From Puia dinghuensis (lineage in GTDB: Bacteria; Bacteroidota; Bacteroidia; Chitinophagales; Chitinophagaceae): a stretch of DNA of 32,199 bases. Both the position numbers and the translations under genes were made by a program. The stretch spans positions 1 to 32,199 of the forward strand of contig JAMFSL010000012.1 of assembly GCA_026225275.1 (NCBI GenBank). The letters run 5' to 3'. Below, piece by piece: positions 5,594-31,392 of this stretch. Numbering within the stretch: position 1 is the stretch's first letter; the number at the start of each line of letters is the position of its first letter. The notes under the pieces are model-generated. The model saw only the letters and a program-made list of their open reading frames with translations. It was not told the DNA's origin and did not search any database.

Positions 5594-5640
5594 GAGAGGA
5601 CGCGCGAGGGCGCGGCCGATACTAGAAGCGGCAGCTCTGT
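5594..5640 (+). repeat. Dispersed hairpin element, copy A
   Basis: The hairpin at 5598-5617 has arms GGACGCGC and GCGCGGCC around loop GAGG. The tail CGATACTAGAAGCGGCAGC (5617-5635) follows, then CTCTGTG. It lies between the convergent E1 and yebC genes and starts five bases after the E1 stop codon. The arms carry one A/G mismatch at the third pair, shared with copies C, D and E. The same element recurs near 12414, 24797, 27476 and 31355. Confidence 0.85.
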
Positions 5641-5700
5641 GCGGTAGGATGGAGGGCTCCGGGTCAGTAAGGGGCTGGGGCCGGATGGGCCCGAGGGCGC

Positions 5701-6423
5701 CTACTTCAGGTTGTGAAAGACTTTTTGAACGTCTTCGTCCTGTTCCAGCCGGTCGATCAGTTTGAGCACATCCTGGGCCTGGTCTTCGGAGAGTTCGACC
5801 GTGGTGGTCGGGATCCATTCGGTCTCCGAGCTGATCGGGGTGATACCTTTTTCTTCCAGGGCCTTCTGCAAATGACCGTAGTCGTTGAAGGCTGCCCGTA
5901 GTACCAGCACCGGTTCGTCATGTTCCCCGGTTCCTTCGCCCAATTCTTCGAGGCCGTGATCGATCAGCTCTAATTCCATGTCGTCCATATTAACTCCTTC
6001 GGGTTTCAGCTTGAAGACCCCCATCTTTTTGAACTGGAAGCTGACGCTGCCGCTATTGCCCAGGGTTCCACCGCCTTTATTGAAGTGCGACTTGACGTTC
6101 GCGACTGTTCTGACATGGTTATCGGTGGCCGTTTCGACGACGAGGGCCACCCCATGGGGGGCATATCCTTCATACAGGATCTCTTCGTAGTTCGTGGTGT
6201 CCTTGCCCGTCGCCCGCTTGATGGCGGCTTCGACGCGGTCTTTGGGCATGTTGACGCTCTTGGCGTTCTGGAAGCAGCGGCGCAGCGCGGGGTTGGTGGC
6301 GGTATCGGGGCCTCCGACCTTGACGGCAATGGCGATTTCCTTACCGATGCGGGTGAATTGCTTGGCCATCCGGTCCCAGCGGGCGAACATGGTATGCTTC
6401 CGTACTTCAAATATGCGACCCAT
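5701..6423 (-). CDS. YebC/PmpR family DNA-binding regulatory protein
   Basis: A 240-residue member of the YebC family (TACO1/PmpR). These cytoplasmic proteins have been described both as transcription regulators and, more recently, as factors that relieve ribosome stalling. The N-terminus [20 protein letters not shown] is the variant of the usual MAGHSKWxxIKxxK opening seen in Bacteroidota. It is followed by the family core [30 protein letters not shown], then [18 protein letters not shown], and [21 protein letters not shown]. Length matches the family (about 240). The gene has its own well-formed promoter and converges on the E1 gene, with copy A of the hairpin element between them. Confidence 0.93.
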
Positions 6424-6444
6424 AGACTTTTCCTTTTAGGGGGG

Positions 6445-6475
6445 CAAAAATAGAACAAAAGAAAACCGCCTCAAA
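6445..6475 (-). promoter_or_regulatory. yebC-family gene promoter
   Basis: On the minus strand TTTG (6475 to 6472), a 19-bp spacer and TATTTTTG (6452 to 6445) give a perfect match to TTTG-N19-TAnnTTTG. The predicted start near 6440 leaves a leader of about 16 bases containing AAAAGGAAAAG before the ATG at 6423. The -33 element lies inside the arm of the permease terminator. Confidence 0.65.
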
Positions 6476-6496
6476 AGAAAAATTCGAGGCGGTTTT
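6462..6496 (-). terminator. Terminator of the amino acid permease gene
   Basis: AAAACCGCCTC (6462-6472) pairs perfectly over 11 bp with GAGGCGGTTTT (6486-6496) around a 13-base loop. On the minus strand the hairpin runs into TTTTCTTTTG. It lies 54 bp after the permease stop codon and overlaps the promoter of the next gene. Confidence 0.75.
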
Positions 6497-6549
6497 GCTG
6501 AAAGGCGGGCGGGCGGCCTGAAAATAAAATGCCGCCGGGGAATAGAACT

Positions 6550-8118
6550 TTATAGCGCTTTGAGCTTGCTGTTTTTTTGGCCATAGGCAAAGTAGACCAC
6601 GAGGCCGATGATCATCCAGACAAATGCGGCTGTCAGCGTGTGAATATCGAGTGCGACGATCATACCGAGGCAGACCAACACTCCCAGAATGGGAACCAGC
6701 GGCACCAGGGGTGTACGGAAAGGCCGTTCCGCATCGGGATTCGATTTGCGCATGACCAGCACACCAGCACTGACGAGTACAAAGGCAAACAATGTTCCGA
6801 ATGAGGTAAGGTCGCCTGCTATGCTGCCGGGCACGAAGGCGGCGAACAAGCCGACGAACAAGAAGAGGATCATGTTGGACTTGTAAGGCGTCCGGAATTT
6901 GGGATGAAGGTCGGAGAAGATCTTAGGGAGTAATCCATCGGTAGACATAGTATAGAATACTCGGCTCTGACCCAGCAACATGACGAGTATCACCGAAGAA
7001 AATCCGGCGAGGATGGCCACGTTGACGGCGGTCGCCAGCCATTTATATCCTACCATATAGGTCTTGATGGCATAACTGACGGAAGCCTCTTTGCCTGCGA
7101 GTTCGAAATCCTTCCAGTTGGCGACGCCGGTCAGCACATAAGAGAACAGTACATATAATATGGTGCAGACGACGAGTGAACCCAGAATGCCGATGGGCAT
7201 ATCCCTTTTGGGATTCTTTGCCTCCTGGGCTGCGGTGGATACGGCGTCAAAGCCAATAAAGGCAAAAAATACGATCGCTGCTCCGCCGAGAATGCCGCCA
7301 AGGCCGTGTTTGAAAAATCCTTCGTGTCCGGGAGCGTCGGCCGGGATAGTGTATGGGGTATGGTTGGCGGGGTTGATAAAATGCCAGCCGACTGCGATGA
7401 AAACCAATACGATAGCTACTTTGATGAATACGATGATCGCGTTGACAAAGGCCGACTCCGCGGTGCCTTTGATCAAGAGCAAGGAGATCAGCAACAGGAT
7501 GAGCAGCGCCGGGAAATTCATGATACCATTAGAGGTATGCACGAGTGCCTGCAGGTCAGGAGACAAGGCCTTATATTGGAGGTCACTGATTAAAGCCACA
7601 TTTTCTTTGGCGGCAGCGGCAATGCTGGCCGGGAATTGTGCGATCGCGGAGCCTGTTACGCGGTGAATATGCTCGAGTGGCGAATGGCACCATTCATAAG
7701 GTATCTTGCCGCCGAAAAGCTGGTTCAGATATTCGCTCCACGCGATTGAGACAGTAGCTGCGCCGAGGGCATATTCCATAATCAGCGCCCAGCCGATGAT
7801 CCAGGCTATTAATTCGCCGAGGGTGGCGTAAGCGTAGGTATAAGCACTACCGGCGATGGGGATCATGGCTGCAAATTCAGCATAGCAAAGGCCGGCGAAT
7901 ACGCAGCCTACTGCGGCTACGATGAAAGAGACCGTGACTGCGGGGCCTGCAGCTTCGGCTGAAGCGGCGGCAGTCCTGACAAACAGGCCTGCGCCAATAA
8001 TGGCTCCAACCCCTAAGGCAACGAGGTTTCCCGCCCCCAGGGTCCGTTTGAGGCCTTTTTCGGAATTGGCCGCCTGAGTCAGCAAAGAAGCCAGGGATTT
8101 CTTTCTGAGTAAACTCAT
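6550..8118 (-). CDS. APC-family amino acid permease
   Basis: A 522-residue integral membrane protein of the amino acid-polyamine-organocation superfamily, closest in pattern to the cationic amino acid transporter (YfnA/CAT) group. The N-terminus GLKRTLGAGNLVALGVGAIIGAGLFV is the classic first helix, with the unwound GxIIGxG that holds substrate. Later helices include AGLCYAEFAAMIPIAGSAYTY, and FFAFIGFDAVSTAAQEAKNP RDMPIGI, the conserved helix 6 to 8 segment. About 12 to 14 hydrophobic segments are visible. It would import amino acids across the inner membrane. The ATG at 8118 (MSLLRKKS) is preferred because the 24 residues upstream of it lack any family pattern. It diverges from the DAACS symporter gene. 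Confidence 0.9.
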   Translation of the reverse strand: MSLLRKKSLASLLTQAANSEKGLKRTLGAGNLVALGVGAIIGAGLFVRTAAASAEAAGPAVTVSFIVAAVGCVFAGLCYAEFAAMIPIAGSAYTYAYATLGELIAWIIGWALIMEYALGAATVSIAWSEYLNQLFGGKIPYEWCHSPLEHIHRVTGSAIAQFPASIAAAAKENVALISDLQYKALSPDLQALVHTSNGIMNFPALLILLLISLLLIKGTAESAFVNAIIVFIKVAIVLVFIAVGWHFINPANHTPYTIPADAPGHEGFFKHGLGGILGGAAIVFFAFIGFDAVSTAAQEAKNPKRDMPIGILGSLVVCTILYVLFSYVLTGVANWKDFELAGKEASVSYAIKTYMVGYKWLATAVNVAILAGFSSVILVMLLGQSRVFYTMSTDGLLPKIFSDLHPKFRTPYKSNMILFLFVGLFAAFVPGSIAGDLTSFGTLFAFVLVSAGVLVMRKSNPDAERPFRTPLVPLVPILGVLVCLGMIVALDIHTLTAAFVWMIIGLVVYFAYGQKNSKLKAL

Positions 8119-8274
8119 AAATAGCTTGTTTTGATATGTTTTGCTTTGGTGATGACTAGAGCCGAAAATAAACAAATATTTAATACTCAACCGTCAATTG
8201 TTAGCGCCAGAGCGGGATTTTTGGGATTAAAGTTTTGTCAAATCAATATTTTTCGATTCTTTGCAGACTCAAAG

Positions 8275-9534
8275 ATGGACCGGATGCCTAAGATCAGTCT
8301 GACAGGGTGGATGATGATCGCTATGGTCGCAGGTGTTCTCCTGGGGCTTTGGGCGCATTATAATGGTAGTACGGCACAGATTGAAGGTTTTACGGCGGTG
8401 ACGGGGGTGGTGACGGATATTTTTCTCCGGCTGATCAAGATGATCATTGCGCCGCTGGTCTTTTGCACGCTGGTGGTGGGAATTGCTAAACTAGGGGATA
8501 TCAAGGCGATAGGCAGGATTGGCGGAAAGGCGTTGTTGTGGTTTATGGGGGCTTCCTTTCTGTCGCTGCTGCTGGGTATGGTGGTCATGCATGCCCTGTC
8601 TCTGGGCAGCGAGCTGAACCTGCCGCTTCCGCCGGCCGGCGCCAGCACGGGTATCGAACAGTCGACTCTCTCTTTTAAGACTTTTTTTACCAATATCGTT
8701 CCCCTCAGTATTTTCGATGCCCTGGCGAAAAATGCGATCTTGCAGATCGTCGTCTTTGCCGTTTTGTTCGGCATTGCCACGGCCTCCATCGGGGAACAGG
8801 GTGCAATGGTCATCAAAGCCCTTGACGCCATCTCGCAAATTGTCCTGCGGGTTACAGGTTATGTCATGTATCTTGCGCCGATCGCTGCTCTGGCGGCGAT
8901 TGCCAGTGTGATGGCGATCAAGGGGCCGGAATTGCTGGTGAGCTATGGAAAAGTGATCCTGAGCTTTTATATGGCGATATTGTTATTGTGGCTGATCCTG
9001 CTGCTGGTCGCCAGCGCCTTTGTGGGCAGGCGGGTGATCGAGCTGGTGATGACGGTGAAGGATATGCTGTTACTGGCTTTCAATACGGCGACTTCGGAGG
9101 CTGCTTTTCCCCGGCTGATCGTGGAGCTGGAAAATTTCGGCTGTCCGCCGAAGATTGTGAGCTTTATATTGCCCCTGGGGTATTCTTTTAATCTGGATGG
9201 GGCGATGCTGTATGCGACTTTTGCGTCATTATTCATTGCGCAGGCGTATAATATTCACCTGAGCCTGGGGCAGGAAGTCTCGATGCTGCTGGTGCTGATG
9301 CTGACGAGTAAGGGGGTGGCGGGGGTTCCGCGGGCGGTACTGGCGGTTTTGACGAGCACGCTTTTAATGTACAATATACCGCAGCAGGGGCTGTTACTTT
9401 TGCTGGGTATCGACCAGATACTGGATATGGCCCGGGCCGCCACTAACGTATTGGGTAATAGCATAGCGGTGGTTGTGGTGAGCAAGTGTGAGGGGGAATT
9501 AGGGGAGGCTGGCGTGAATAAGAAAGCTGCCTGA
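8275..9534 (+). CDS. Dicarboxylate/amino acid:cation symporter (DAACS family)
   Basis: This protein of about 419 residues has the GltP/DctA fold and couples uptake of glutamate, aspartate or C4-dicarboxylates to H+ or Na+. Visible family motifs are FLRLIKMIIAPLVFCTLVVGIAKLGD in the first third, and AFNTATSEAAFPRLIVELENFGCP, the re-entrant loop corresponding to the serine-rich motif. Further motifs are LPLGYSFNLDGAMLYATFASLFIAQ, the helix 7 region, and MARAATNVLGNSIAVVVVSK, the substrate-binding helix 8 with the conserved Asn. Translation most likely begins at MDRMPKIS (8275) or the next ATG at 8284; the longer upstream reading lacks family features. It opens a rightward gene run, with DedA 34 bp downstream. 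Confidence 0.92.
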   Translation: MDRMPKISLTGWMMIAMVAGVLLGLWAHYNGSTAQIEGFTAVTGVVTDIFLRLIKMIIAPLVFCTLVVGIAKLGDIKAIGRIGGKALLWFMGASFLSLLLGMVVMHALSLGSELNLPLPPAGASTGIEQSTLSFKTFFTNIVPLSIFDALAKNAILQIVVFAVLFGIATASIGEQGAMVIKALDAISQIVLRVTGYVMYLAPIAALAAIASVMAIKGPELLVSYGKVILSFYMAILLLWLILLLVASAFVGRRVIELVMTVKDMLLLAFNTATSEAAFPRLIVELENFGCPPKIVSFILPLGYSFNLDGAMLYATFASLFIAQAYNIHLSLGQEVSMLLVLMLTSKGVAGVPRAVLAVLTSTLLMYNIPQQGLLLLLGIDQILDMARAATNVLGNSIAVVVVSKCEGELGEAGVNKKAA

Positions 9535-9568
9535 GGTAACCAAATTAACTGAATTTATTCTTTTTTTT

Positions 9569-10273
9569 ATGTTCGAACTCTTAACGATCACTTTCAAAGA
9601 CCTGATCAATCCTGAATTTTACATTGCACTTGGCGGCTTGTGGGTGTTATTGTTCATCGTTTTTGCCGAGACCGGCCTGATGGTCGGATTTTTTCTGCCG
9701 GGGGACAGCCTGCTGTTTGTAGCGGGTATCTATAGTGAAAAACTGGTTGACAGTATGATGAGCGGCGGCACCGGCAGTGAACTGCTGGACCTGGTGGTGC
9801 TTTGGCTGATGGTATCGGCGGCGGGTATACTCGGCAATGCAGCGGGCTACTGGTTCGGTCACAAAAGTGGTCCTTATCTGTATCAGCGGAACGACAGCAT
9901 GTTGTTCAAGAAAAAATACCTTTTCCGGGCGAAAGAATTCTTTGACAAGCATGGGGGCGAGGCCGTTGTGTTTGCCCGTTTCCTGCCTATTATCCGGACG
10001 TTTACTCCGATCATTGCGGGGGTTGTGGCGATGGACCGAAAGAAATTTATCATTTACAATATCATCGGTTGTGCGGCCTGGGTTTTCGCGATGCTCTTTG
10101 CGGGTCATTACCTGGACAAGCTCTTTATGATGAAATTCGGTTTCGATCTGAAAAAGCACCTGGAAGTCATCGTCATCGGCATCGTCATTATCACTACGGC
10201 CCCCGTCATTTACAAACTCTTTTTCGGCAAAAAAAATCCTCCTGTTGCCGAGGACCCCTATAAAAAATCATAA
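9569..10273 (+). CDS. DedA family membrane protein (VTT domain)
   Basis: A 234-residue inner-membrane protein of the DedA family, whose members flip or transport lipids, including undecaprenyl phosphate in some bacteria, and support membrane homeostasis. The signature is present: ETGLMVGFFLPGDSLLFVAG near 30-50, GILGNAAGYWFGHKSGP near 90-105, and FARFLPIIRTFTPIIAGVVAMDRKKF near 133-158 with the conserved RF...R-T..P.AG pattern. A C-terminal hydrophobic helix precedes a basic tail. It sits between the symporter and the MFS transporter, eight bases upstream of the latter, and is probably co-transcribed with it. Substrate is unknown. Confidence 0.92.
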   Translation: MFELLTITFKDLINPEFYIALGGLWVLLFIVFAETGLMVGFFLPGDSLLFVAGIYSEKLVDSMMSGGTGSELLDLVVLWLMVSAAGILGNAAGYWFGHKSGPYLYQRNDSMLFKKKYLFRAKEFFDKHGGEAVVFARFLPIIRTFTPIIAGVVAMDRKKFIIYNIIGCAAWVFAMLFAGHYLDKLFMMKFGFDLKKHLEVIVIGIVIITTAPVIYKLFFGKKNPPVAEDPYKKS

Positions 10274-10281
10274 TTTTCCGC

Positions 10282-11526
10282 ATGGAGCAAAAAAAGGTCT
10301 CGCTTTTCAATCTGGCTGTGATCGTAGGAGCCCTGGGTTATTTTGTCGATGTCTACGATCTGTTGCTATTCAGTATTATCCGGATACCATCGCTGAAGGG
10401 GCTGGGGTTGACGGATGCAGAAGTGAAAATAAAGGGAACGGATATCCTGAGCATCCAAATGTATGGGTTGCTGATCGGCGGCATCCTCTGGGGCGTGTTG
10501 GGTGATAAACTGGGGAGGTTGCGGGTATTGTTTGCGTCCATCATCCTGTATTCTTTGGGAAGCATCGCGAATGGTTTTGTGCATACCGTCAGTCAGTATG
10601 AGCTGGCACGTTTTGTTACGGGGCTGGGGTTGGCGGGCGAATTGGGTGCGGGGATCACGCTGGTGAGCGAGCTGATGCCAAAGGAAAGGCGCGGGATCGC
10701 TACTTCGCTGGTTGCCGGGATTGGGTTGAGCGGGGCGGTGTTTGCGTATTTTATCAAAGTCTGGTGTGTGGGTGCGACTGGTGAAGGCTGGAGGACCTGT
10801 TATTATATCGGCGGCGGGCTTGGTATCCTGCTGTTGCTGTTGCGGGTGGGGGTGCTGGAGTCGGGGATGTATAAGAATATGGCCGGAACGGCTGTGAGCC
10901 GCGGGAATTTTTTTATGTTGTTCACCAGCGGGCAGCGGTTCAAAAAATATCTGACGGCAATATTGATCGCCCTGCCGAATTGGTATGTCATTGGGGTGTT
11001 GATTTCCTTTAGCAATGATTTTGCAACTGACATGAAGGTGAAGGGAGCGATCGATCCGGGCAAGGGGATCATGGTGGCATATGCGGCGATCTCGATAGGG
11101 GATGTGTTGATCGGGTTTATCAGTCAGGGGTTGAAGAGTCGGAAAAAAGCACTGTTGCTCTTCCATATTATTACTGTGATCGGGGTGATCGCCTTTTTCA
11201 ACCTGCAAGGGGCGACGTCGGCTACCTTGTATTGGGTCTGTGTGTTGTTGGGTTTTGGGACTGGTTTCTGGGCGATGTTCGTGACGATGGCGGCTGAGCA
11301 GTTCGGGACGAATATCCGGGCGACCGTGGCGACGACAGTGCCTAATATGGCTCGCGGGTCTTTGGCAGTGGTTGTTGCGCCCTTGTTCAAGTCACTGGTG
11401 CCTTCACTAGGTCATTTCCAGGCGGGGTGGGTGACGGGTGTTATTGTTTTTGTAGTCGCGTTTGTGGCGTTGGCGATCACGCCGGAAACGTTTGGAAAGG
11501 AATTGAATTACATAGAGCCACAATAA
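10282..11526 (+). CDS. MFS transporter
   Basis: A 414-residue major facilitator superfamily transporter with about 12 hydrophobic helices. It shows the loop 2-3 motif GDKLGRLRVLF and the D-to-R pattern ARFVTGLGLAGELGAG typical of the metabolite:H+ symporter and sugar-porter branches. LMPKERRGIATSLVAG follows helix 4. The C-terminal half repeats the pattern with AAEQFGTNIRATVATTVPNMARG, as in aromatic-acid or sialate-type symporters. The substrate is not predictable. The stop codon overlaps the ATG of the glycosyltransferase by one base (TAATG), a sign of translational coupling. The gene is part of the run from 8275 to 12626 or beyond. Confidence 0.9.
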   Translation: MEQKKVSLFNLAVIVGALGYFVDVYDLLLFSIIRIPSLKGLGLTDAEVKIKGTDILSIQMYGLLIGGILWGVLGDKLGRLRVLFASIILYSLGSIANGFVHTVSQYELARFVTGLGLAGELGAGITLVSELMPKERRGIATSLVAGIGLSGAVFAYFIKVWCVGATGEGWRTCYYIGGGLGILLLLLRVGVLESGMYKNMAGTAVSRGNFFMLFTSGQRFKKYLTAILIALPNWYVIGVLISFSNDFATDMKVKGAIDPGKGIMVAYAAISIGDVLIGFISQGLKSRKKALLLFHIITVIGVIAFFNLQGATSATLYWVCVLLGFGTGFWAMFVTMAAEQFGTNIRATVATTVPNMARGSLAVVVAPLFKSLVPSLGHFQAGWVTGVIVFVVAFVALAITPETFGKELNYIEPQ

Positions 11527-12626
11527 TGAAGTTTCTGGTTATTAGATTTTCTTCTATCGGGGATATTGTACTGACGACTCCGGTGGTCCGCTGCCTGAAA
11601 AAGCAAGTCGCGACGGCGGAGGTGCATTATCTGACCAAGGCTTCCTTCAAGCCCATCCTTGAGGCCAATCCCTATATCGATAAGATCCATTGTCTGGGGG
11701 CGGGACTTGCGGGGGGGCCGGCTGCGGGGGACGATCTTGCGGCGGTGATCGAGACACTGCGGCGGGAGGATTTCGATTATGTGATCGATCTGCATCATAA
11801 TCTGCGGACCTTAAAGGTCAAGCGAGGGCTGGGTAAGAAGGCTTTTTCTTTTGACAAGCTGAACATTCCAAAGTGGCTATACACGAATTTTAAAGTGAAC
11901 CGGATGCCCGAGCGGCATATCGTGGACCGGTATATGGATACTGTCGCCGCTTTCGGGATCAAAAATGACGGGGCCGGTCTCGATTATTTTATTCCGGCGG
12001 CGGACGAGCTGAAACCCAACGATATTCCTACGGCTCACCAGGCGGGGTATGTGGGGCTGGTGATCGGAGCGGCATTGCCGACCAAGAAGCTGCCTTATCA
12101 CAAGCTGGCGGAGGTATGCGAGCAGGCGCGGCATCCGATGATCCTGCTGGGCGGTCCGGAAGATGTTGCGGTCGGGGAGCGGTTGGCGGCGATCGATCCG
12201 ATCAAGATCTACAATGCCTGTGGGAAGTTTAATCTCAACGAGTCTGCGGGGCTGGTGCGGCAGGCGCGGCTGATCGTGACGCATGATACGGGGCTGATGC
12301 ATATTGCGGCGGCTTTTAAGCGGCCTGTCCTGTCGATCTGGGGGAATACCGTGCCGGAGTTCGGGATGTATCCTTATTATGGGGATAATTATTTGAATTT
12401 TTATGAAGGGAGAGACCGTTCGAGGGAACGGTCGATCTTAGAAGCCGAAGCTCCGGGCGAGGATTGGCAGACGTCAGGGAAGTCACCTTACTCGATGATG
12501 GAGGTAAAGGGGTTGAGCTGTCGTCCCTGTTCGAAGATCGGGTATCAAAAATGTCCGAAGGGGCATTTCAAATGTATGGAGCAGCAGCCGATGGAGGTTG
12601 TGATTGACGCGATCGAGCGGCGATAG
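11526..12626 (+). CDS. Glycosyltransferase family 9 (heptosyltransferase-like) with element insertion
   Basis: This 366-residue cytoplasmic enzyme belongs to family GT9, which adds heptose or related sugars to lipopolysaccharide core. The start MKFLVIRFSSIGDIVLTTPVVRCLK is the family N-terminus and fixes the ATG at 11526, overlapping the MFS stop; a longer reading from 11427 is an overlap artefact. The donor-binding part shows GAALPTKKLP, ILLGGPED, and THDTGLMHIAAAFKRPVLSIWGNTVPEFGMYPY. The C-terminus GLSCRPCSKIGYQKCPKGHFKCM is a Cys-rich tail seen in Bacteroidota members. Between YPYYGDN and the Cys-rich tail lie about 25 extra residues rich in Arg and Glu (GRDRSRERSILEAEAPGE), encoded by copy B of the dispersed hairpin element. 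The element is read in sense and keeps the frame. Confidence 0.92.
   Translation: MKFLVIRFSSIGDIVLTTPVVRCLKKQVATAEVHYLTKASFKPILEANPYIDKIHCLGAGLAGGPAAGDDLAAVIETLRREDFDYVIDLHHNLRTLKVKRGLGKKAFSFDKLNIPKWLYTNFKVNRMPERHIVDRYMDTVAAFGIKNDGAGLDYFIPAADELKPNDIPTAHQAGYVGLVIGAALPTKKLPYHKLAEVCEQARHPMILLGGPEDVAVGERLAAIDPIKIYNACGKFNLNESAGLVRQARLIVTHDTGLMHIAAAFKRPVLSIWGNTVPEFGMYPYYGDNYLNFYEGRDRSRERSILEAEAPGEDWQTSGKSPYSMMEVKGLSCRPCSKIGYQKCPKGHFKCMEQQPMEVVIDAIERR
12411..12480 (+). repeat. Dispersed hairpin element, copy B, inside the GT9 gene
   Basis: A perfect hairpin at 12414-12433 has arms GACCGTTC and GAACGGTC around loop GAGG. The tail CGATCTTAGAAGCCGAAGC follows, then GGATTGGCAGACGTCAGG (12461-12478), which is nearly repeated at 27566-27583 in copy D. 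About 69 bp (23 codons) of the glycosyltransferase gene are accounted for by the element. This is the only copy in which all eight arm pairs match. Confidence 0.85.
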
Positions 12627-12680
12627 GGTTAGAAGGGCAGCGGCGGTAAGGAGGATTTTTACTATTTTTAAAATAAAACT

Positions 12681-13751: not shown

Positions 13752-13753
13752 CA

Positions 13754-13783
13754 TAAAAAAACCCCGATCGTGGGATCGGGGTT
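13754..13783 (-). terminator. Terminator of the malate dehydrogenase gene
   Basis: AACCCCGATC (13760-13769) and GATCGGGGTT (13774-13783) form a perfect 10-bp stem with loop GTGG. On the minus strand it ends in a run of T. It lies 44 bp after the mdh stop codon. On the plus strand no T-run follows, so it acts mainly for mdh but may also slow the convergent DUF3667 transcript. Confidence 0.85.
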
Positions 13784-24271: not shown

Positions 24272-24597
24272 TTTGTTATAGATTTTTTCGTTTTGAGGTG
24301 TTTTATTGATTGAGCGTCTGTGGTACCAAATTAACGCCAAGGTTTCACAACTGTATCTACCAACGCTTTAGTTTAACAAATGTTTTACTAAGACCTTCGT
24401 AGATCGGTTCGACTATGCTTATAAATATACGACTAAAATGAAGTCTTTTGGGGGAATTTCGTGTGGGCGGGGCGGGGATTTCGGCTGGTTGCGGGGGGAG
24501 TGGTTCCGGGGTTGGGGTTAGGATTTGGCCGGGTGGTTGCGAGATTTGGCAAGGGGCGAGGCAACCGGAAAAAATTGCAGTTTGGGCTGACAATTGT
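24272..24597. other. Intergenic stretch, AT-rich half and G-rich half
   Basis: This 326-bp gap lies between two minus-strand genes. The part up to about 24445 is AT-rich and should hold the HtrA promoter, though no clean -33/-7 pair is seen (TTAATTTG at 24327-24334 on the minus strand is the nearest). The part from 24463 to 24540 is strikingly G-rich on the plus strand, with runs of three to six G. No protein gene or tRNA is recognised. Confidence 0.5.
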
Positions 24598-25761
24598 TCA
24601 GGGTTTTTCGCCGAGGCTGCGCAAAAATTGCAGGGTATCGCGGCCGTCGGCGTAGTCGGTGAGGCCGGGTTGCTGGGCGTGGCCGAAGGCTATGGGGGCC
24701 GCCTTCGCCGAGGCTTCGGCGGCCGAGGGGGCGCCGACAACGCATTGGATATCTGGATTATCCGGAGCCAGGGCGGAAGAGGACGCGCGAGTGAGAGGAC
24801 GCGCGAGGGCGCGGCCGATACCAGAAGCGGGAGCCATGGGCGAAAGCCTCGAAGGAGTTGGCGATACCAGAAGCGGCAGCGCTGTGCCGGGCAGGGCAGG
24901 AATAGGCTGGCCGGGACGATAAAACTGATAATGTAACACACTGATCGGGCTGAAGGGGGAGGCTTCTTCCGTCAGTAGGATCGAATCATTAGAGAGGTAA
25001 TATTTCTTATTCAGGATCAGCAGGGTCAGTTGGTAATCATAGTTATTCTTGTAGCGGGCCAGGTCGGCCAGGTAGTCGTATTTGCGGAAGGTGGTGAGCA
25101 GGGGGAGGAAATCGTAATTTTCCGGTACATAGAGTTGGGTAACGTTGCGGCAGCCGAGGCCGAAGTATTGATAGACGTCGTCGGCGAGTCCTTCCAGTTG
25201 ATGGGGGGATTCCTGGCCGGTAAGCACGGCGACAGAGGTCCGGTTGCGGCGGATGAGGCTGGGATATTTTCCAAAATAATAGTCAAAATAGCGGGCGGAA
25301 TTATTGCTGCCGGTAGCAATGTAGGCGTCGCACCCGTTGAGTCTTTCAGCGAATTGTATCTGTTGAGCTGCTGCCGGGCTGGCGGCCGACAGCCATTCGG
25401 CGAGATGGCGGATGAGCACTTCATCCCGTTGGGAGGGTTTGATGAGCTGACGATGTCCTGATATGAAGATGGACAGGAAATCATGAAATCCTACGAGGGG
25501 AATATTACCTGCCATGACCAGGCCGATGGTACGGGGTAGGGCAGGCTGATCGGGAAGTTGGTATTGGCTGGCCCATGCCTGGAGTTTATCTTTTTGCAGG
25601 AACCCGGTGGCGATCCCGCGGACGGCCAATTCAATGAATTCCGGGGTGAACCATGGGTTGACGGCCGATGCCTGCCGTTTGGCTGCTGACCAGTCCGGAC
25701 TCTCTGATACACAGTACTCACCGAGCCGAGCCAATAAATCTATCCGTTGTTCCAAGTTCAT
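24598..25761 (-). CDS. LuxC-like acyl-CoA reductase with element insertion
   Basis: This 387-residue protein resembles the acyl-CoA reductase (LuxC) family, NADPH-dependent enzymes that make aldehydes from acyl-CoA or related thioesters. Family patterns are GLVMAGNIPLVGFHDFLSIFISGH, KPSQRDEVLIRHLAEWL, YIATGSNNSARYFDYYFGKYPSLIRRNRTSVAVLTG and the C-terminal AFGHAQQPGLTDYADGRDTLQFLRSLGE. The ATG at 25761 gives MNLEQRIDLLARLG, the usual start. The protein is longer than Bacteroidota relatives as I recall them (about 340-350 residues). The surplus falls at residues 292-331, exactly where copy C of the dispersed hairpin element lies in antisense, with a further palindrome-coded piece near 346-355. 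It diverges from the ferredoxin gene. Confidence 0.85.
   Translation of the reverse strand: MNLEQRIDLLARLGEYCVSESPDWSAAKRQASAVNPWFTPEFIELAVRGIATGFLQKDKLQAWASQYQLPDQPALPRTIGLVMAGNIPLVGFHDFLSIFISGHRQLIKPSQRDEVLIRHLAEWLSAASPAAAQQIQFAERLNGCDAYIATGSNNSARYFDYYFGKYPSLIRRNRTSVAVLTGQESPHQLEGLADDVYQYFGLGCRNVTQLYVPENYDFLPLLTTFRKYDYLADLARYKNNYDYQLTLLILNKKYYLSNDSILLTEEASPFSPISVLHYQFYRPGQPIPALPGTALPLLVSPTPSRLSPMAPASGIGRALARPLTRASSSALAPDNPDIQCVVGAPSAAEASAKAAPIAFGHAQQPGLTDYADGRDTLQFLRSLGEKP
24697..24724. repeat. Palindrome inside the acyl-CoA reductase gene
   Basis: GGCCGCC (24697-24703) and GGCGGCC (24718-24724) form a perfect 7-bp stem around a GC-rich loop containing GCCGAGGCTTCGGC. It encodes the Ala-rich piece SAAEASAKAA, which interrupts the family pattern between IQCVVG and AFGHAQ. 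It is not a copy of the GAGG-loop element, and no second copy was seen in the window. Confidence 0.55.
24779..24889 (+). repeat. Dispersed hairpin element, copy C, compound, inside the acyl-CoA reductase gene
   Basis: The hairpin at 24797-24816 has arms GGACGCGC and GCGCGGCC around GAGG. It is preceded by a duplicated left part GAGGACGCGCGAG at 24779-24791. The tail CGATACCAGAAGCGGGAGC is at 24816-24834, and a second tail CGATACCAGAAGCGGCAGC is at 24862-24880. The element is antisense to the host gene. It is read as APASGIGRALARPL from the first tail and hairpin, and as LPLLVSP in another frame from the second tail. Confidence 0.85.
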
Positions 25762-25772
25762 AAAAACCGCGC

Positions 25773-25796
25773 TATATTTGCTGGATCGCAAAGGTA
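25773..25796. promoter_or_regulatory. Face-to-face -7 elements, ferredoxin and acyl-CoA reductase
   Basis: On the plus strand TATATTTG (25773-25780), with a TTG 23 bp upstream (25747-25749), points to the ferredoxin gene. On the minus strand TACCTTTG (25796 to 25789) points to the acyl-CoA reductase gene. Both match TAnnTTTG exactly. The two predicted start sites fall within a few bases of each other near 25785, so polymerase could occupy only one promoter at a time. Confidence 0.6.
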
Positions 25797-25825
25797 AGTT
25801 TAATCACTCCCTAATTTTATAAAAT

Positions 25826-26173
25826 ATGGCTATTAAGATAACAGAAGAATGTATTAATTGCGGCGCCTGCGAACCGGAATGTCCCAACAATGCGATTTAT
25901 GAAGGTGGCGTGGAATGGGCAATTACGGATGGCACCAGTGTGAAGGGCTCTTTTACGCTGCTGGATGGCAGTGTTGTGGATGCGGGGCACCGTAACGCGC
26001 CTATCAGTGTGGATACTTATTATATCGTTCCTAATAAATGTACCGAGTGTCAGGGGTTTCATGAGGAGCCGCAGTGTGCGGCGGTTTGTCCGGTGGATTG
26101 TTGTGTGCCGGATGATATGTATAAGGAGACGGTGGATGAGTTACTGGCTAAAAAGGGGAAGTTGCATTTATAG
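25826..26173 (+). CDS. 2[4Fe-4S] ferredoxin, extended type
   Basis: A 115-residue electron carrier with two iron-sulfur clusters. The first cluster motif is CINCGACEPECP (C9, C12, C15, C19). The second is CTECQGFHEEPQCAAVCP (C72, C75, C84, C88), where eight residues separate the second and third cysteines, as in Allochromatium-type ferredoxins. Between the motifs lies a 50-residue insert instead of the usual 25 or so, and a short acidic-basic C-terminal tail follows. It is cytoplasmic. The gene is divergent from the acyl-CoA reductase, and their promoters overlap, which suggests linked control and perhaps a shared redox pathway. The direct partner enzyme is unknown. Confidence 0.93.
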   Translation: MAIKITEECINCGACEPECPNNAIYEGGVEWAITDGTSVKGSFTLLDGSVVDAGHRNAPISVDTYYIVPNKCTECQGFHEEPQCAAVCPVDCCVPDDMYKETVDELLAKKGKLHL

Positions 26174-26376
26174 ATTTTCCGGGCGGATTCGCGGGGCCGA
26201 TTGAGGGGTATGAGGAGTGTGGAGTGGCGGGGCGGTGGGATGTGCATAAGTGCTGCCCGATTTGCTCGGATTTTCTTTGGAATTTTCGTGGAATTCGGTA
26301 ACTTAACGTTATCAATTTGTTTGCGAATGTAGCCCGAGTGCTACTAATAATAGGCGGGTGATATTTCCCGTCATAA

Positions 26377-26414
26377 AAGGGTGAAGGACGTATTTCCTTC
26401 ACCTTTCTGTTTTG
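26377..26414 (+). terminator. Hairpin terminator between ferredoxin and ddl
   Basis: AAGGGTGAAGGA (26377-26388) pairs with TCCTTCACCTTT (26395-26406) over 12 positions, with one GU pair and loop CGTATT. CTGTTTT follows. It lies about 200 bp after the ferredoxin stop and 53 bp before ddl. It may end the ferredoxin transcript or act as a leader hairpin of ddl. Nothing else is recognised in 26174-26376. Confidence 0.65.
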
Positions 26415-26466
26415 GGGTGCGCGGGGCGAATAACTTTCGTTATTTTGCCGAAAATTATTCTCATTC

Positions 26467-27456
26467 ATGAAACCTACCATTGCATTCATCACCGGCGGGT
26501 ATTCCGGTGAGTCGGTTATCTCCTATAAAAGCGCTATTACGATTGAAAATAATCTGGATTATGACAGATACACGGTGTATCGTATCGATATTACGCCCGA
26601 TAGTTGGTTTCATCCCATGAAGGATGGTCGAAAGATCGTCGTTGATAAAAATGATTTTTCGTTGACGATCGATGGGCGCAAGATCGTGTTTGATGCCGTG
26701 CTGATGGGCATACACGGCACGCCGGGCGAGGATGGTAAGTTACAGGGATATTTCGATCTGTTGCATCTGCCCTATACGAGCTGCGATGCGGTGGTGTCTG
26801 CGATAACGTTCAATAAGCGTTTTACGGTAGCTGTTGCTTCCTTCAACGGCATTCATGTGGCACGATCGGTGCTGTTCCTTCAGGGAAGGGGGGATAGTCC
26901 CGATGAGATGACGCGGCACCTGCAGTTTCCGGTTTTTGTCAAGCCGAACAATGGCGGGTCGAGCATTGGGATGTCGAAGGTGAATTCACGTTCGGAAGAG
27001 TTGGGCGCTGCCATTGAAAAAGCTTTCCGGGAGGACAAGGAGGTGCTGGTGGAAGAATTTATTGCAGGGCGGGAGTTCACGATCGGCGTATTCAGACACA
27101 AGGGGGAGATCATTACACTACCCTTCACGGAAGTAAAGAGTAAAAGGGAGTTTTTCGATTTCGAGGCGAAGTATACGGCGGGGTTAAATGAGGAGATCAC
27201 TCCTGCCCAGGTTGATGAAGCTATTGCGGCCAAGGTCAGGGCTACCGCCAAAAAGATCTATGCGGTGTTTAATTGCCGGGGCATTATCCGGATCGATTTT
27301 ATTTACAATGAGGAGAAGGGGGAGCCATTCATGCTGGAAATCAATACGGTGCCGGGGCAAAGTGAGGCCAGTCTCGTTCCGCAGCAACTGAAGGTCCATG
27401 GCTGGACGCTGGAGCAGTTTTATTCGGCGCTGGTCGATGAGGCGCTGGGGGGCTAG
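26467..27456 (+). CDS. ddl: D-alanine--D-alanine ligase
   Basis: A 329-residue ATP-grasp ligase that joins two D-alanines for peptidoglycan synthesis. The N-terminal domain has ITGGYSGESVISYKSA, where the family usually has GGxSxEHxVS, and VLMGIHGTPGEDGKLQGYFDLLHLPYTSCDAVVS with the substrate loop HGxxGEDG. The ATP-grasp part shows FPVFVKPNNGGSSIGMSKV, VLVEEFIAGREFTIGVF, and NCRGIIRIDFIYNE, ending with MLEINTVPGQSEASLVPQQ. Length is typical. The stop TAG runs directly into copy D of the hairpin element. The PASTA gene that follows also relates to the cell wall. Confidence 0.95.
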   Translation: MKPTIAFITGGYSGESVISYKSAITIENNLDYDRYTVYRIDITPDSWFHPMKDGRKIVVDKNDFSLTIDGRKIVFDAVLMGIHGTPGEDGKLQGYFDLLHLPYTSCDAVVSAITFNKRFTVAVASFNGIHVARSVLFLQGRGDSPDEMTRHLQFPVFVKPNNGGSSIGMSKVNSRSEELGAAIEKAFREDKEVLVEEFIAGREFTIGVFRHKGEIITLPFTEVKSKREFFDFEAKYTAGLNEEITPAQVDEAIAAKVRATAKKIYAVFNCRGIIRIDFIYNEEKGEPFMLEINTVPGQSEASLVPQQLKVHGWTLEQFYSALVDEALGG

Positions 27457-27583
27457 AGACCGTCCGAGGGGGAGAGGACGTTCGAGGGAACGGCCGATCT
27501 TTGAAGCGGGAGCCTTATGCCAGGGTTGAAGGGGTATCGATCTTAGAAGCGGGAGCTCTGGGATTGGATTGGCAGGCGTAAGG
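27455..27583 (+). repeat. Dispersed hairpin element, copy D, compound
   Basis: The main hairpin (27476-27495) has arms GGACGTTC and GAACGGCC around GAGG. A partial copy, GAGACCGTCCGAGGG, precedes it at 27456-27470. The first tail, CGATCTTTGAAGCGGGAGC, is at 27495-27513. The second, CGATCTTAGAAGCGGGAGC, is at 27538-27556, followed by GGATTGGCAGGCGTAAGG (27566-27583), which is also seen in copy B. The ddl stop codon overlaps the left edge. The same compound order is seen in copy C. Confidence 0.85.
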
Positions 27584-27647
27584 CGAGTGCGGATAAAATT
27601 CTTTATCTTCGGCAATAACCAACGATCTTATTTTAAACTATTAAGGC

Positions 27648-28463
27648 GTGTTTAAATTTCTCACCACCAAACCCCTCTGGGTTAACATAGTAGCAGGTTT
27701 CGTCATTTTATTGTTGCTGTTGTTATTGTTCCTGGGCTCGCTGGCGCTGCTGACCCAGCATGGCAAGACGATGAAGATCCCGTCGGTCACGGGGATGTCG
27801 TTTGACGAGGCGAAGAAAACGCTGCAGGGGCAGGGATTTGAGGTGCAGATCCAGGATAGCAGCGTTTATTATGATACCATGCGTCCGATGCAGGTGGTCA
27901 AGCAGTTCCCGGAGGCGGATAATCTGGTCAAGATCAACCGTACGGTTTATCTGTCGATCAACCGGGCCTCGGCGCCTTTTATCCAGATGCCGAATCTGGT
28001 GAGTATGAGTTTCCGCAATGCCAAGACTGTACTGAGCCAATACGGGCTCAAACTGGGGGATACGATCTTCAAGCCCGACTTTGCCCGAAATTCGGTTTTG
28101 GATCAGCAATACAAGGGTGAGACCATCAAGCCCGGGACGACCATTCAGCAAGGGAGTTCCGTTACGCTGGTGCTGGGCAATGGCATTGGCGGCCAGGAGT
28201 TCATCGTGCCGGACCTTACCGGGCTGACCTATCAGCAGGGGAAGACACGGCTGGACTCGTTTGGTCTTTCATTGGGGGCTGTCGCTAAGGACCCGGATGT
28301 GAGAGATTCGGCTGAATCCTATATCTACTGGCAGTCTCCACCACAGTTCAACGACGGTGGCGGGGTCAATCATATTCGTCCCGGTCAGGCGATCGACATC
28401 AAACTAGGCGTACAGAAGCCGGTGCCCGGGGATTCTACGCATGCCTCGACCAACACCAATTAA
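27648..28463 (+). CDS. PASTA domain membrane protein
   Basis: A 271-residue protein that starts with GTG. A short cytoplasmic stretch and one membrane helix (NIVAGFVILLLLLLLFLGSLALL, about 12-35) are followed by three PASTA repeats near 40-105, 108-178 and 183-258. Repeat starts are visible as MKIPSVTGMSFDEAKKTLQGQGFEV, IQMPNLVSMSFRNAKTVLSQYGLKLG and FIVPDLTGLTYQQGKTRLDSFGLSLG. PASTA domains bind peptidoglycan or muropeptides in kinases and penicillin-binding proteins. Here no kinase or transpeptidase domain is present, so the protein is a stand-alone anchored PASTA protein, common in Bacteroidota. Its neighbourhood with ddl fits a cell-wall role, by inference. Confidence 0.9.
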   Translation: MFKFLTTKPLWVNIVAGFVILLLLLLLFLGSLALLTQHGKTMKIPSVTGMSFDEAKKTLQGQGFEVQIQDSSVYYDTMRPMQVVKQFPEADNLVKINRTVYLSINRASAPFIQMPNLVSMSFRNAKTVLSQYGLKLGDTIFKPDFARNSVLDQQYKGETIKPGTTIQQGSSVTLVLGNGIGGQEFIVPDLTGLTYQQGKTRLDSFGLSLGAVAKDPDVRDSAESYIYWQSPPQFNDGGGVNHIRPGQAIDIKLGVQKPVPGDSTHASTNTN

Positions 28464-28493
28464 TCATTTTTATTTGTAAACTAATATCTAGCC

Positions 28494-28802
28494 ATGCAAA
28501 CTATTTCCGTCGAGGAGTTAAAAGCCCGGATAGACGCCGGTGAAACCCTGCATTTACTGGATGTCCGGGAGCCTTTTGAACACGAAGATTTCAATATTGG
28601 CGGTGTACTGCTGCCCCTGGGCAGGATCCAGACTTTACAGACGGACGAGATTGACGGCTGGAAGGACCAGGAGGTTATCTGTTATTGCCGTAGTGGCAAT
28701 CGTAGCGGGCAAGCCTGTATGATACTGGAAGGGGCCGGGTTCACGAACCTGAAGAATCTCTCCGGGGGAATGAATGCCTGGCAGGACCGGATAAAATCTT
28801 AA
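28494..28802 (+). CDS. Rhodanese-like domain protein
   Basis: A 102-residue single-domain rhodanese. These enzymes move sulfane sulfur through a cysteine persulfide. The N-terminal motif is LLDVREPFEHEDFNIGGVLLPLG, and the active-site loop is CYCRSGNRSG with C65. The GMNAW near the end is the conserved C-terminal motif of this group. No signal peptide is present, so it is cytoplasmic. It follows the PASTA gene after 30 bp. Sulfur donor and acceptor are unknown. Confidence 0.93.
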   Translation: MQTISVEELKARIDAGETLHLLDVREPFEHEDFNIGGVLLPLGRIQTLQTDEIDGWKDQEVICYCRSGNRSGQACMILEGAGFTNLKNLSGGMNAWQDRIKS

Positions 28803-28890
28803 GGCGGGGGTTGGAGGGATGTGGCGCGAGGGCTGAGGGGCAAGCAACATTTTCACCATGCGGGCGTCCTTATGGGAAACCTCCCGGGAT

Positions 28891-31350
28891 ATGTCAACCA
28901 AAATCTTTCCTTTCCTGTTCCGTCGCTGGCGAAAGAATAAAGCGTACAGTGTCCTTAATATTTTTGGGCTGGCGATGGGTATCGCCTGTGCAGGCCTGAT
29001 TTTTTTATGGATCGAGGATGAACGCAGCTACGACAATTTCAACACAAAAAAAGACCGTCTCTACAAGATTGAGGTCAACATGGCTGTCGATGGAAACGTC
29101 TCGACCATCGGTTCTACGCCGCGGCCATTGATGGACGTGCTGAAAAAAGAGATCCCGGGTGTCAGGAATGCTGCACGCGCCTCGGATGAAAACAGGAAGA
29201 TACTCCTTGGGTGGGGAGACCGGTCGTTGTATGCCACGGGTGGTTATGCAGATCCTTCGCTGTTCAGCATGTTCACGCTGCCTTTTGTTGCCGGAGACCC
29301 GAGGACGGCATTCAATCAAATATATTCCCTGGTACTAACGGAAACAGAAGCCCGCAAAATTTTCGGACCCGTTCCTGCTGCATCGCTGATTGGTAAGTCT
29401 TTGCATGTCGATAATATCCGGGACTATACGGTAACGGGCATTGTCAAAGACCTCCCTGCGAATAGCGGCCTGCAATTTGAATGGCTTGCTCCTTTCGCTA
29501 TCGATATACTTCGCCAGGGCATTGACACCCTCCATCCGGATAGACCCCTTGTCTGGAACAGCTATGGCCCCATGACCTACGTTGAACTGGAGCCGGGTGT
29601 GGACCCACATACTGTCGATAAAGAAATGGCCGGACTCATTCATCGAAAAGATCCGCCGCGCAATCATCAGCTGTTTTTGTTCCCCATGAGGGACTGGCGA
29701 CTGTATGATCAGTTCGAGAATGGCAAACAAACGGGCGGCGGCCGGATAGAATACGTCAATCTCTTGTCGCTGGTGGCGTGGATCATCCTGCTGATCGCAT
29801 GCATCAATTTCATGAACCTGGCGACGGCGCGCAGCCAGCAAAGGGCCAGGGAGATCGGTGTCCGTAAGGTGTTGGGTGCAGGGAGAAAAGGGCTGGCGTT
29901 GAGGTTTCTGCTGGAGGCGCTGTATCTGTCGGCGGTGGCGGGGGTGCTGGCTGTGGGTATCATGGCTTTAGCCCTGCCGGCCTTCAATGCGCTGGTGGAA
30001 AAGCAACTTTTTCTTGCGCCCTTACGTCCGGACCATTGGCTGGGTCTGTTGAGTATCATTGTCTGTTGCGGGCTGGTGGCAGGCAGCTATCCTTCCTTCT
30101 ATCTCTCGTCTTTCAAACCGATCATTGTATTGAAGGCGATGAAGCTACCGGCCGGGAGCGATGCCTGGATACGCAAAGGGCTGGTAGTCTTACAATTTTC
30201 GCTTTCGATTGTCTTTATCATTGCGACGATCATCATCTTCCGGCAAATTCAATATGTGAAGGAGCGCAACTTAGGTTTTCATAAAGACCAGCTGATCGAG
30301 ATCGATATGCAGCATGCGATGGCAGGGGCCTTTGAGGGTATCAGACAGGAATTGCTGCAAACCGGTGCAGTGGCCTATGCCGCGATGGCCGACCACTCCA
30401 TCCTGAAAGGAGGGAATACGCGTGATTACGATTGGCCTGGTAAGCCTGTCAACATGCAGGTTAATATCGCCCATAGGAATGTCTCGAACGACTTTATCCC
30501 GGCATCGGGTATGACACTGCTTGCAGGAAGTAATTTTGCATCGCCGACGGATTCTTCTCATGTACTTGTCACGGCGACTATGGCCCGGTTGATGAGCACG
30601 GAGAGCAAAGGAGAAGGCGGAGGGAAGGAAGGGGAAGGCATCAACTATGGCGATATACCGGGCAAGGTCATCCGATTTCCGATCAACGAAGAAAAGACGC
30701 GGTTCGAGTATTTTACAGTGGCGGGAGTAGTGAGTGATTATGTCTATGGCAGTCTTTATGGGGATCCCGGGCCGCTGATCTTGTTCTGCAAGGCTCCCGG
30801 CTACTGGGATGCAAATCTGATCTATGTCCGGATGAAGGAGACCCGGAATCCTTCACAGGCATTGGCGAAGATACAGGAGGTCATTCAGGGATATAATAAA
30901 GGGTATCCCTTTCAATACGCCTATGTCGACGACCAGTTCAATGCACAGTTTAAAACGGAAGCATTGATGGCTGACACAGCGAAGGCTTTTGCTATTCTTG
31001 CCATTCTGATTTCCTGCCTGGGGCTATTTGGGCTGGCTGCCTACAGTGCTGAACAAAGGACGCGGGAGATCGGCATCCGCAAAGTGCTGGGGGCGAGTGT
31101 GGCGGGGATCACGGGGCTCCTGTCGAAAGATTTTTTGCAGCTGGTTGCAATCTCGTGTCTGATTGCCTTTCCTGTTGCGGGTTGGCTGGCGCATAACTGG
31201 CTGCAGCAGTATACTTATCGCATTGCGCTGAGCGGGTGGATATTTGTGATGGCCGGGGTTCTGGCGCTGCTGATTGCCTGGGTCACGATTGCCAGTCAGG
31301 CTATCCGGGCGGCGCTGGCTAATCCGGTTGTCGCTTTGCGGAGTGAATAG
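28891..31350 (+). CDS. ABC transporter permease, MacB/FtsX type
   Basis: A protein of about 819 residues with two MacB-periplasmic-core/FtsX units, as in the large family of Bacteroidota permeases. A first helix (SVLNIFGLAMGIACAGLIFLW, about 19-39) and a periplasmic domain are followed by three helices with the signature ATARSQQRAREIGVRKVLGAGRKGLALRFLLEALYLS. A second unit ends in EQRTREIGIRKVLGASVAGITGLLSKDFLQLV. Such proteins use conformational change across the membrane, often for export or signalling, with a separate ATPase that is not in this window. The start at 28891 (MSTKIFPFLFRRW) resembles the family start; an earlier in-frame ATG at 28858 is possible. Copy E of the hairpin element begins directly after the stop. 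Confidence 0.88.
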   Translation: MSTKIFPFLFRRWRKNKAYSVLNIFGLAMGIACAGLIFLWIEDERSYDNFNTKKDRLYKIEVNMAVDGNVSTIGSTPRPLMDVLKKEIPGVRNAARASDENRKILLGWGDRSLYATGGYADPSLFSMFTLPFVAGDPRTAFNQIYSLVLTETEARKIFGPVPAASLIGKSLHVDNIRDYTVTGIVKDLPANSGLQFEWLAPFAIDILRQGIDTLHPDRPLVWNSYGPMTYVELEPGVDPHTVDKEMAGLIHRKDPPRNHQLFLFPMRDWRLYDQFENGKQTGGGRIEYVNLLSLVAWIILLIACINFMNLATARSQQRAREIGVRKVLGAGRKGLALRFLLEALYLSAVAGVLAVGIMALALPAFNALVEKQLFLAPLRPDHWLGLLSIIVCCGLVAGSYPSFYLSSFKPIIVLKAMKLPAGSDAWIRKGLVVLQFSLSIVFIIATIIIFRQIQYVKERNLGFHKDQLIEIDMQHAMAGAFEGIRQELLQTGAVAYAAMADHSILKGGNTRDYDWPGKPVNMQVNIAHRNVSNDFIPASGMTLLAGSNFASPTDSSHVLVTATMARLMSTESKGEGGGKEGEGINYGDIPGKVIRFPINEEKTRFEYFTVAGVVSDYVYGSLYGDPGPLILFCKAPGYWDANLIYVRMKETRNPSQALAKIQEVIQGYNKGYPFQYAYVDDQFNAQFKTEALMADTAKAFAILAILISCLGLFGLAAYSAEQRTREIGIRKVLGASVAGITGLLSKDFLQLVAISCLIAFPVAGWLAHNWLQQYTYRIALSGWIFVMAGVLALLIAWVTIASQAIRAALANPVVALRSE

Positions 31351-31392
31351 GAGAGGACGCGCGAGGGCGCGGCCGAGCTTAGAAGCGGGAGC
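31351..31392 (+). repeat. Dispersed hairpin element, copy E
   Basis: The hairpin at 31355-31374 has arms GGACGCGC and GCGCGGCC around GAGG, followed by tail CGAGCTTAGAAGCGGGAGC (31374-31392). It begins at the first base after the TAG of the permease gene. Only one tail is present. A weak GC-rich echo, ACGCGCGGGGGCGGCC, follows near 31417. Confidence 0.85.

Follow-up and report, generated by a model that had tools for sequence, protein, structure and literature searches.

A short hairpin unit of Puia dinghuensis moved after the split from a close relative and often lies in frame within conserved genes

Five hairpins that share a GAGG loop and a conserved tail are scattered over a 32,199-nucleotide (nt) stretch of the genome of Puia dinghuensis (contig JAMFSL010000012.1), hereafter the window, and they raise the question of whether they are copies of a mobile element and, if so, how it moves and what it does to the genes that it enters. 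An earlier note on this DNA had proposed a dispersed and perhaps mobile hairpin, to be recognized by further copies, by empty sites in related genomes and by covarying arms. We compared the copies of this genome (G000; 6.59 Mb in 365 contigs) with those of a congener (G030), a Chitinophagaceae metagenome-assembled genome (MAG) that is 87% complete with 5% contamination; numbers beginning with L denote loci in the compared genomes. When 46 copies were compared with the orthologous place in the other genome (16 and 30 from two rounds), the element was absent there in 38 cases. Therefore, the element has moved after the species split, in both lineages and in both orientations. All three signs named in the note, further copies, empty sites and covarying arms, were found. 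It lies in intergenic DNA, at gene ends, in frame within genes and inside older copies of itself.

The unit is about 65-70 nt long and consists of a G-rich AGAG foot and a hairpin of 8 bp (sometimes 6 bp) with a mostly GNNR loop, followed by CGATnYTAGAAGC, a small GC-GNNA-GC hairpin and a 3′ part that ends near GG(A/G)(A/G)T. AGA is invariant and AGAG is at least 90% conserved in 29 G000 copies, and AGAG is invariant in 30 G030 copies. Of 107 copies from both genomes, 91 have AGAG in position; in these, conservation extends from about 4 nt 5′ of AGAG to about 30 nt past GAAGC, beyond which it drops to background. Strong pairing is confined to the first 20 nt of the unit. In the window, the tail CGATCTTAGAAGCGGGAGC occurs six times at up to 3 mismatches, compared with 0.02 expected from shuffles, and a 64-nt family with the hairpin is the first-listed family among the direct repeats. 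The five full hairpin copies start at 5593, 12409, 24792, 27471 and 31350, all on the plus strand. Their arms are GGACGCGC and GCGCGGCC at 5593, 24792 and 31350, GGACGTTC and GAACGGCC at 27471, and GACCGTTC and GAACGGTC at 12409 (copy B), each pair enclosing GAGG. The hairpins, loops, paired arm changes and tail described in the earlier note are thus all present, with arm positions 2, 6 and 7 changing in pairs and position 3 being A/G in all copies but B. The note had missed the nesting and the in-frame positions described below, as well as some 25 nt of conserved 3′ sequence downstream of the tail. The GAGG loop, which had been called invariant, is so in the five window copies and is common, not invariant, over more copies. 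Two extra tails, at 27538 and at 24862 (the latter with 4 mismatches), are not directly preceded by a hairpin of their own, and two 5′ half-hairpins occupy 24778-24791 and 27455-27470. Copies C and D are therefore nested, a unit within a unit. An Rfam scan of the window returned only a tRNA at the gathering score, and no curated RNA family covers the unit at that threshold. The features are as follows.

5593-5657, plus strand: copy A, simple unit; hairpin 5598-5617, tail 5617-5635; 74.4 bits
12409-12473, plus strand: copy B, simple unit; hairpin 12414-12433; in frame within the family-9 glycosyltransferase open reading frame 11427-12626 (PF01075)
24598-25791, minus strand: host gene of copy C (in frame, opposite strand); no Pfam family reached E 1e-5
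24778-24791, plus strand: outer 5′ half-hairpin of copy C (AGAGGACGCGCGAG), remnant of the older copy
24792-24856, plus strand: inner unit of copy C, inserted into the hairpin of the older copy
24862-24905, plus strand: outer second tail and 3′ part of copy C, belonging to the older copy
27455-27470, plus strand: outer 5′ half-hairpin of copy D (AGAGACCGTCCGAGGG); G030 counterpart intact
27471-27535, plus strand: inner unit of copy D, inserted into the hairpin of the older copy, 3′ of a gene ending at 27456
27538-27580, plus strand: outer second tail and 3′ part of copy D; the tail matches that of the earlier note perfectly
31350-31414, plus strand: copy E, simple unit; starts at the stop codon of the MacB/FtsX permease gene 28858-31350; G030 site empty

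Copy A begins 4 nt past the stop of a dehydrogenase E1/transketolase gene (3132-5588). Stop codons at 5588, 27456 and 31350 lie no more than 15 nt from the start of three of the five copies.

The other genome holds an element, a remnant or an outer copy at seven of the 46 places, namely L141, L143 (weak, E 0.036), L090, L115, the second copy of L008 (a remnant) and window copies C and D, both of which are simple older copies in G030. L150 is an eighth non-empty case, in which the G030 contig starts within the unit. The 38 empty sites, window site E among them, include L029, whose downstream flank could not be aligned, L087, L095, L097 and L098, whose right flank has diverged, and L012, where a second copy is present some 160 nt beyond the site, at the contig end. 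The six longest matches of the last 20 kb of the window to G030 are 80-90% identical. Inspection by eye revealed no constant target-site duplication at 37 site pairs, with L076 possibly holding an AGAG repeat, and no terminal inverted repeat at 37 sites, the ends AGAG and GG(A/G)(A/G)T not being inverted copies of each other.

At site D, G030 carries an intact GACCGTCC GAGG GGACGGTC with its tail; in G000, the 5′ arm and loop are followed by a complete unit and then by the tail of the older copy, part of the older 3′ arm having been lost. Site C has the same arrangement, and a single simple unit is present there in G030. In both cases, a new unit has been inserted into the hairpin of an older copy. 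We rejected the idea that nested copies are one long ancestral element, given the perfect simple hairpins of G030 at C and D. Among the sequences collected, 17 rows had two tails, two of which (the second L027 row and L152) are pattern artefacts. The tails are 43-48 nt apart in 12 rows (11 in G000, including window C and D, and L095 in G030), and three rows are head-to-tail arrangements with a spacing of 60-67 nt (L034 in G000, L099 and L112 in G030). The occurrence of the same inner and outer arms at several loci suggests that some nested forms may move as one unit. L070 and L072 (G000 C337:21246 and 29600) are nearly identical nested copies that lie 8 kb apart in opposite orientation, a possible product of very recent transposition of a nested unit or of local inversion-duplication.

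At each of the 46 sites, the open reading frames that cross the filled copy were compared by alignment with those of the ortholog. At 25 of the 38 sites lacking the element in the other genome, the insertion lies in frame inside a gene whose protein is conserved on both sides. Each of these 25 has an ortholog without the element and at least 28 aligned residues per side; 28 sites were first marked internal, and L090 and window copy C, whose orthologs also have a copy, and L098, whose left side is weak (8/23), were left out. L154 and L025 are similar with one short side each (14/16 and 13/19). Under a lower bar, the in-frame calls extend to L142, L143, L115 and window copies D and E, which we did not count, the cases being weak, shared or opposite in strand to the gene next to them. 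The element lies on the strand of the gene at 15 of the 25 sites (in 13 of them in one frame, reading like ERTREGAADIRSDSAVVGQ) and on the other strand at ten. Five sites were not in frame (L147, L108, L073, L101 and the second copy of L008), all of them at gene ends, and at L108 only the frame of the ortholog, and not the filled one, extends beyond the site. None of the 46 sites showed a gene interrupted in its conserved middle, although only survivors are visible. The net length difference was a multiple of three at 27 of 37 measured sites (about 12 expected; binomial p ~1e-6), although this measure is crude, as diverged flanks affect some values and L118, L097 and L096 are in frame by protein without being multiples of three. 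A net gain of 57, 60 or 63 nt was found at 13 of the 37.

A Pfam scan covered 30 host proteins, 28 of which have an in-frame insert (all 25 sites, two of them in one protein, plus L025, L154 and window copies B and C). The hosts include AnmK, a carbamoyltransferase, DNA polymerase III delta′, a ketoacyl synthase, MeaB/methylmalonyl-CoA mutase, Trp dioxygenase, ABC transporters, alpha-galactosidase and acyl carrier protein phosphodiesterase; the host proteins of L154, L080 and window copy C had no family at E 1e-5. The carbamoyltransferase is close to N-acetylornithine carbamoyltransferase, and its flanks are identical at 164/172 and 149/153 residues. Between them, 40 query residues, 29 codons of which are the insertion, stand against 3 in the solved homologue 1js1. 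In AnmK, the insert follows the GGIANVS block. Within the window, the host gene of copy C shares 290/315 and 47/61 identical residues with G030 on the two sides. Copy B reads through in frame and is followed by a C-terminal KGLSCRPCSKIG..CPKGHFKCM cysteine motif; G030 yielded no ortholog of the site. The upstream gene at site D in G030 ends at a TAG inside the element.

The hairpin is maintained as a structure in both genomes. From G000, 53 rows were extracted at up to 5 mismatches to the tail, and 13 were set aside (2 chance matches and 11 second tails). Thirty-six of the remaining 40 were aligned, leaving out the second L004 row, L022, the second L034 row and window copy C. Removal of six short-stem copies and one with an extra stem base gave alignment A2 (29 copies) and, from it, covariance model R1. 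Covariation in A2 was 0.368 compared with a shuffled mean of 0.131; none of 500 shuffles reached the score, and sliding the partners gave at most 0.116. In the 30 G030 copies, which were found with R1 and not used in building it, the value was 0.324 compared with 0.126, again with 0/500 shuffles reaching it and at most 0.129 with partners slid. This support arises because both sides often change together (35 cells changed on both sides in A2 compared with 9.1); the counts of pairs and pair types do not exceed shuffles. In A2, five pairs had a both-side change compared with 3.9 (reached by 53/500 shuffles), and further pair types numbered 15 compared with 13.5 (90/500), neither being exceptional. 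The corresponding G030 values were 4 compared with 3.9 (435/500) and 7 compared with 7.9 (486/500). Pair 1 is G-C in 27/29 and pair 2 is A-T in 8/29 of the G000 copies. Stem pair 3 is non-standard in 15/29 G000 and 17/30 G030 copies, mostly A/G.

Copies are numerous far beyond the window. The tail occurs 48 times in G000 at up to 3 mismatches, 28 forward and 20 reverse, compared with 1 and 1 for a reversed control. The shared orientation of the five window copies, which had been reported as a feature of the set and has a chance probability of about 6%, is therefore local and not a property of the element. R1 found 80 matches at E 0.01 in G000, and across 58 genomes including this one it gave matches at E 0.001 in four, with 74 in G000, 75 in G030, 2 in G007 and 1 in G048. 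The G007 matches resemble the unit, and the G048 match was unlike it when read. A second model, R2, which includes the forms of G007 and G002, matched 82 times in G000, 71 in G030, 4 in G007 and 5 in G002 among 33 genus genomes at E 0.05. Eight other genus genomes had one or two R2 matches each (best E 0.001-0.04), which were taken as noise and were not read. Among 394 genomes of 101 family genera, only G000 matched at E 1e-6 with stricter filters, in a draw that may not include G030, G007 and G002. An exact pattern searched in 84,980 species returned 44 stretches, of which 31 belong to the MAG Chitinophagaceae bacterium palsa_949 (PMUF01), evidently G030. The other 13, single stretches in other records, were dismissed as chance because the model gave E 0.01 or better for only one of them (L102, 20.9 bits). 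Viral contigs held no exact match to the pattern, and plasmids held no match to one 91-base copy used as the query. In the scans made, the unit is found only within the genus. Several G030 contigs end inside a copy (L079, L091, L100 and L103), so the true copy number may exceed the count. Another short repeat, of the form GAAGGGTACGAGCGAGGG, lies near or inside some copies of the hairpin element (just past the L033 copy; L200:581-691).

In the two other genomes, all six copies read, three in G007 (L183, L186 and L187) and three in G002 (L184 and L201:1511 and 11809), are antisense and immediately follow the stop codon of FtsX/MacB permease paralogs, whose proteins end NP..LRAE or LRTD. One further match in each genome was left unread, and the weak G002 match L202 is unlike the unit. 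The element stretch is 84% identical over 81 nt between L183 and L184, with 69-76% in the aligned gene stretches. In the 3′ part, CTGT/ACAG in some copies and GATGC/GCATC in two G007 copies were noticed and not counted, and a third hairpin is not claimed. One G000 copy, L010:1481, has the same placement antisense after an FtsX/MacB-type permease stop, and a protein-motif test placed only 2 of 74 G000 copies at such a permease end. The permease-end copies may represent an older quiet state that gave rise to the mobile form, or a favoured landing site.

Overall, we favour a reading, with a probability of roughly 0.55, in which the unit is a non-autonomous mobile element that works like the repetitive extragenic palindromic (REP) sequences and the Rickettsia palindromic elements (RPE), moving as a folded single strand and served in trans by an unlinked Y1 (HUH) transposase. 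The unit would be recognized in its folded single-stranded form, as suggested by the covarying hairpin and by the enzymes of IS200/IS605 insertion sequences (IS) and of REPs, which act on folded single-stranded DNA. A Y1 transposase of IS200 type, not beside the unit, would be our best guess for the enzyme. The sequence is mostly stop-free in two frames on either strand, and because about 4 of its 6 frames lack stops, insertions that keep the frame at tolerant spots would survive while others would be lost. Movement in trans, which the earlier note had thought probable, is still the likely reading.

Several observations weigh against this reading. G000 has two Y1 matches, one of them a gene encoding 158 amino acids with an HVH motif and tyrosines, but the best Y1 protein scores only 51.9 bits for IS200 (cut-off 55) and 23.7 for the REP transposase (cut-off 80). 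Unfiltered covariance scoring found no copy in the 3.2-3.3 kb around either Y1 gene, and Y1 genes are present in 23 of 33 genus genomes; the link to Y1 is therefore weak. A fixed target, as in IS608, is not supported, since AGAG pre-exists in the empty site at L013, L155, L134 and L076, is absent at L101, the first copy of L008, L138 and L078, and many other flanks are too diverged. Open frames are only slightly above shuffles (mean 4.07 of 6 in 59 copies, which are related, compared with 3.67), which does not establish adaptation to coding. Small target losses also seem to accompany nesting. Y1 genes were considered as a marker of the expansion and rejected, given their presence in those 23 genomes. 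One Y1 gene (L031:1420-1896, IS200-like) lies beside a DAHP synthase/chorismate mutase-like gene and, given similar Y1 matches in many genus genomes, may be domesticated.

The same mobile element could instead depend on another enzyme, such as a DDE or IS110-type transposase or one lost or missing from the draft genome. The lack of a linked Y1 transposase and the failure of Y1 genes to track the expansion would fit, and IS elements that target REP-type hairpins exist; nevertheless, visual inspection of the 37 sites showed neither a constant target duplication nor a terminal inverted repeat, and we consider this explanation rather unlikely. It seems improbable that copying proceeds via RNA, with a folded transcript being reverse transcribed and inserted like a bacterial short interspersed nuclear element (SINE). 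A structure kept by covariation would equally serve an RNA, and the small and uneven target losses suit a loose insertion reaction, but stem pair 3 is non-standard in 15/29 and 17/30 copies, which gives no RNA-specific sign.

A functional 3′-untranslated region or terminator structure, spread with duplicated genes, would account for the six G007 and G002 copies after permease stops and for window copies A and E, which follow stops. However, the 2 of 74 G000 copies at such permease ends are few, and empty sites, in-frame insertions and nesting do not fit gene duplication, so that this explanation is largely refuted for G000 and G030 and has little probability left. Segmental duplication or assembly error is scarcely credible. 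The near-identical nested pair L070/L072, the G030 contigs that end in copies and the fragmentation of both genomes might point that way; in contrast, the copies stand in different flanking sequence that matches different genes, and the clean empty and filled orthologous sites of two separate assemblies refute it.

The trans-mobilized hairpin that we favour has recognizable counterparts among known systems, which we compared through their published descriptions (PMC2229807, PMC3733652, PMC6006769). RPE and the Wolbachia protein-coding palindromes are small mobile repeats found in frame inside conserved genes and between genes (PMC2229807, PMC3733652), and our unit shares the in-frame position inside conserved protein genes (25/38 sites). 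RPE are 105-146 bp long, with terminal inverted repeats and a long stem-loop (PMC2229807), and the shorter RPE-4 and RPE-6 belong to the CGTC repeats (PMC3733652). In contrast, our unit spans about 65-70 nt, pairs strongly only in its first 20 nt and has a Bacteroidota host, a distinction drawn by description. REPs with a REP-associated tyrosine transposase (RAYT; TnpA-REP) resemble it in the short, imperfect hairpin, the conserved 5′ foot, the many dispersed copies, the presumed movement in trans of a folded strand and the intragenic insertions (PMC3733652, PMC6006769). However, the foot here is AGAG and not GT[AG]G (GTAG/GTGG), the tail is long and conserved, and no RAYT gene with flanking copies was found in the 3.2-3.3 kb around the two Y1 genes. 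The subclass 2.6 TnpA-REP systems of Bacteroidetes are reported to have atypical secondary structures on their flanks, copies of which are found at other places in the genome (PMC6006769); compared by description only, our unit differs in that such linkage between element and gene was not seen. CGTC repeats, whose family 1 has an 8-bp stem and a 4-nt loop, occur inside genes, have no dedicated transposase and are reported in Bacteroidetes (PMC3733652). The unit shares the stem and loop size, the presence in genes and the lack of a dedicated transposase, but, again by description, it has no terminal CGTC tag, AT pairs at stem positions 1-2 or CCA tail (PMC3733652). Bacterial miniature inverted-repeat transposable elements with coding frames (ERIC, the 107-bp Neisseria repeat and YPAL) are non-autonomous, and some are fused in frame to genes (PMC2229807); most such elements have terminal inverted repeats and target duplications, neither of which was seen here. 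Because the unit lacks the REP and CGTC tags and the size and palindrome of RPE, we file it under none of these families, although it works like them. In the literature searched, in which subscription papers were mostly out of reach, no description of this unit was found.

We speculate, at somewhat less than even odds, that the unit is a minimal mobile hairpin unrelated to RPE or REP by descent, compatible with coding and landing in its own older hairpins, and that it represents an independent origin of gene-invading palindromic DNA. Most detail on repeats that insert in frame into genes comes from Rickettsia and Wolbachia, and intragenic REPs are known from several other bacteria (PMC2229807, PMC3733652). 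Here, Bacteroidota with genomes near 6 Mb show the same habit, and the two closely related species provide many filled and empty sites at the same genes. These pairs allow direct tests of which protein positions tolerate the addition of some 20 residues, how often they do so, which enzyme moves the unit and whether nested copies move as one. If the speculation holds, it would add a further independent origin of palindromic DNA that invades protein genes, in Bacteroidota and recently active. The surviving in-frame insertions also form a natural experiment on the tolerance of proteins to random insertion.

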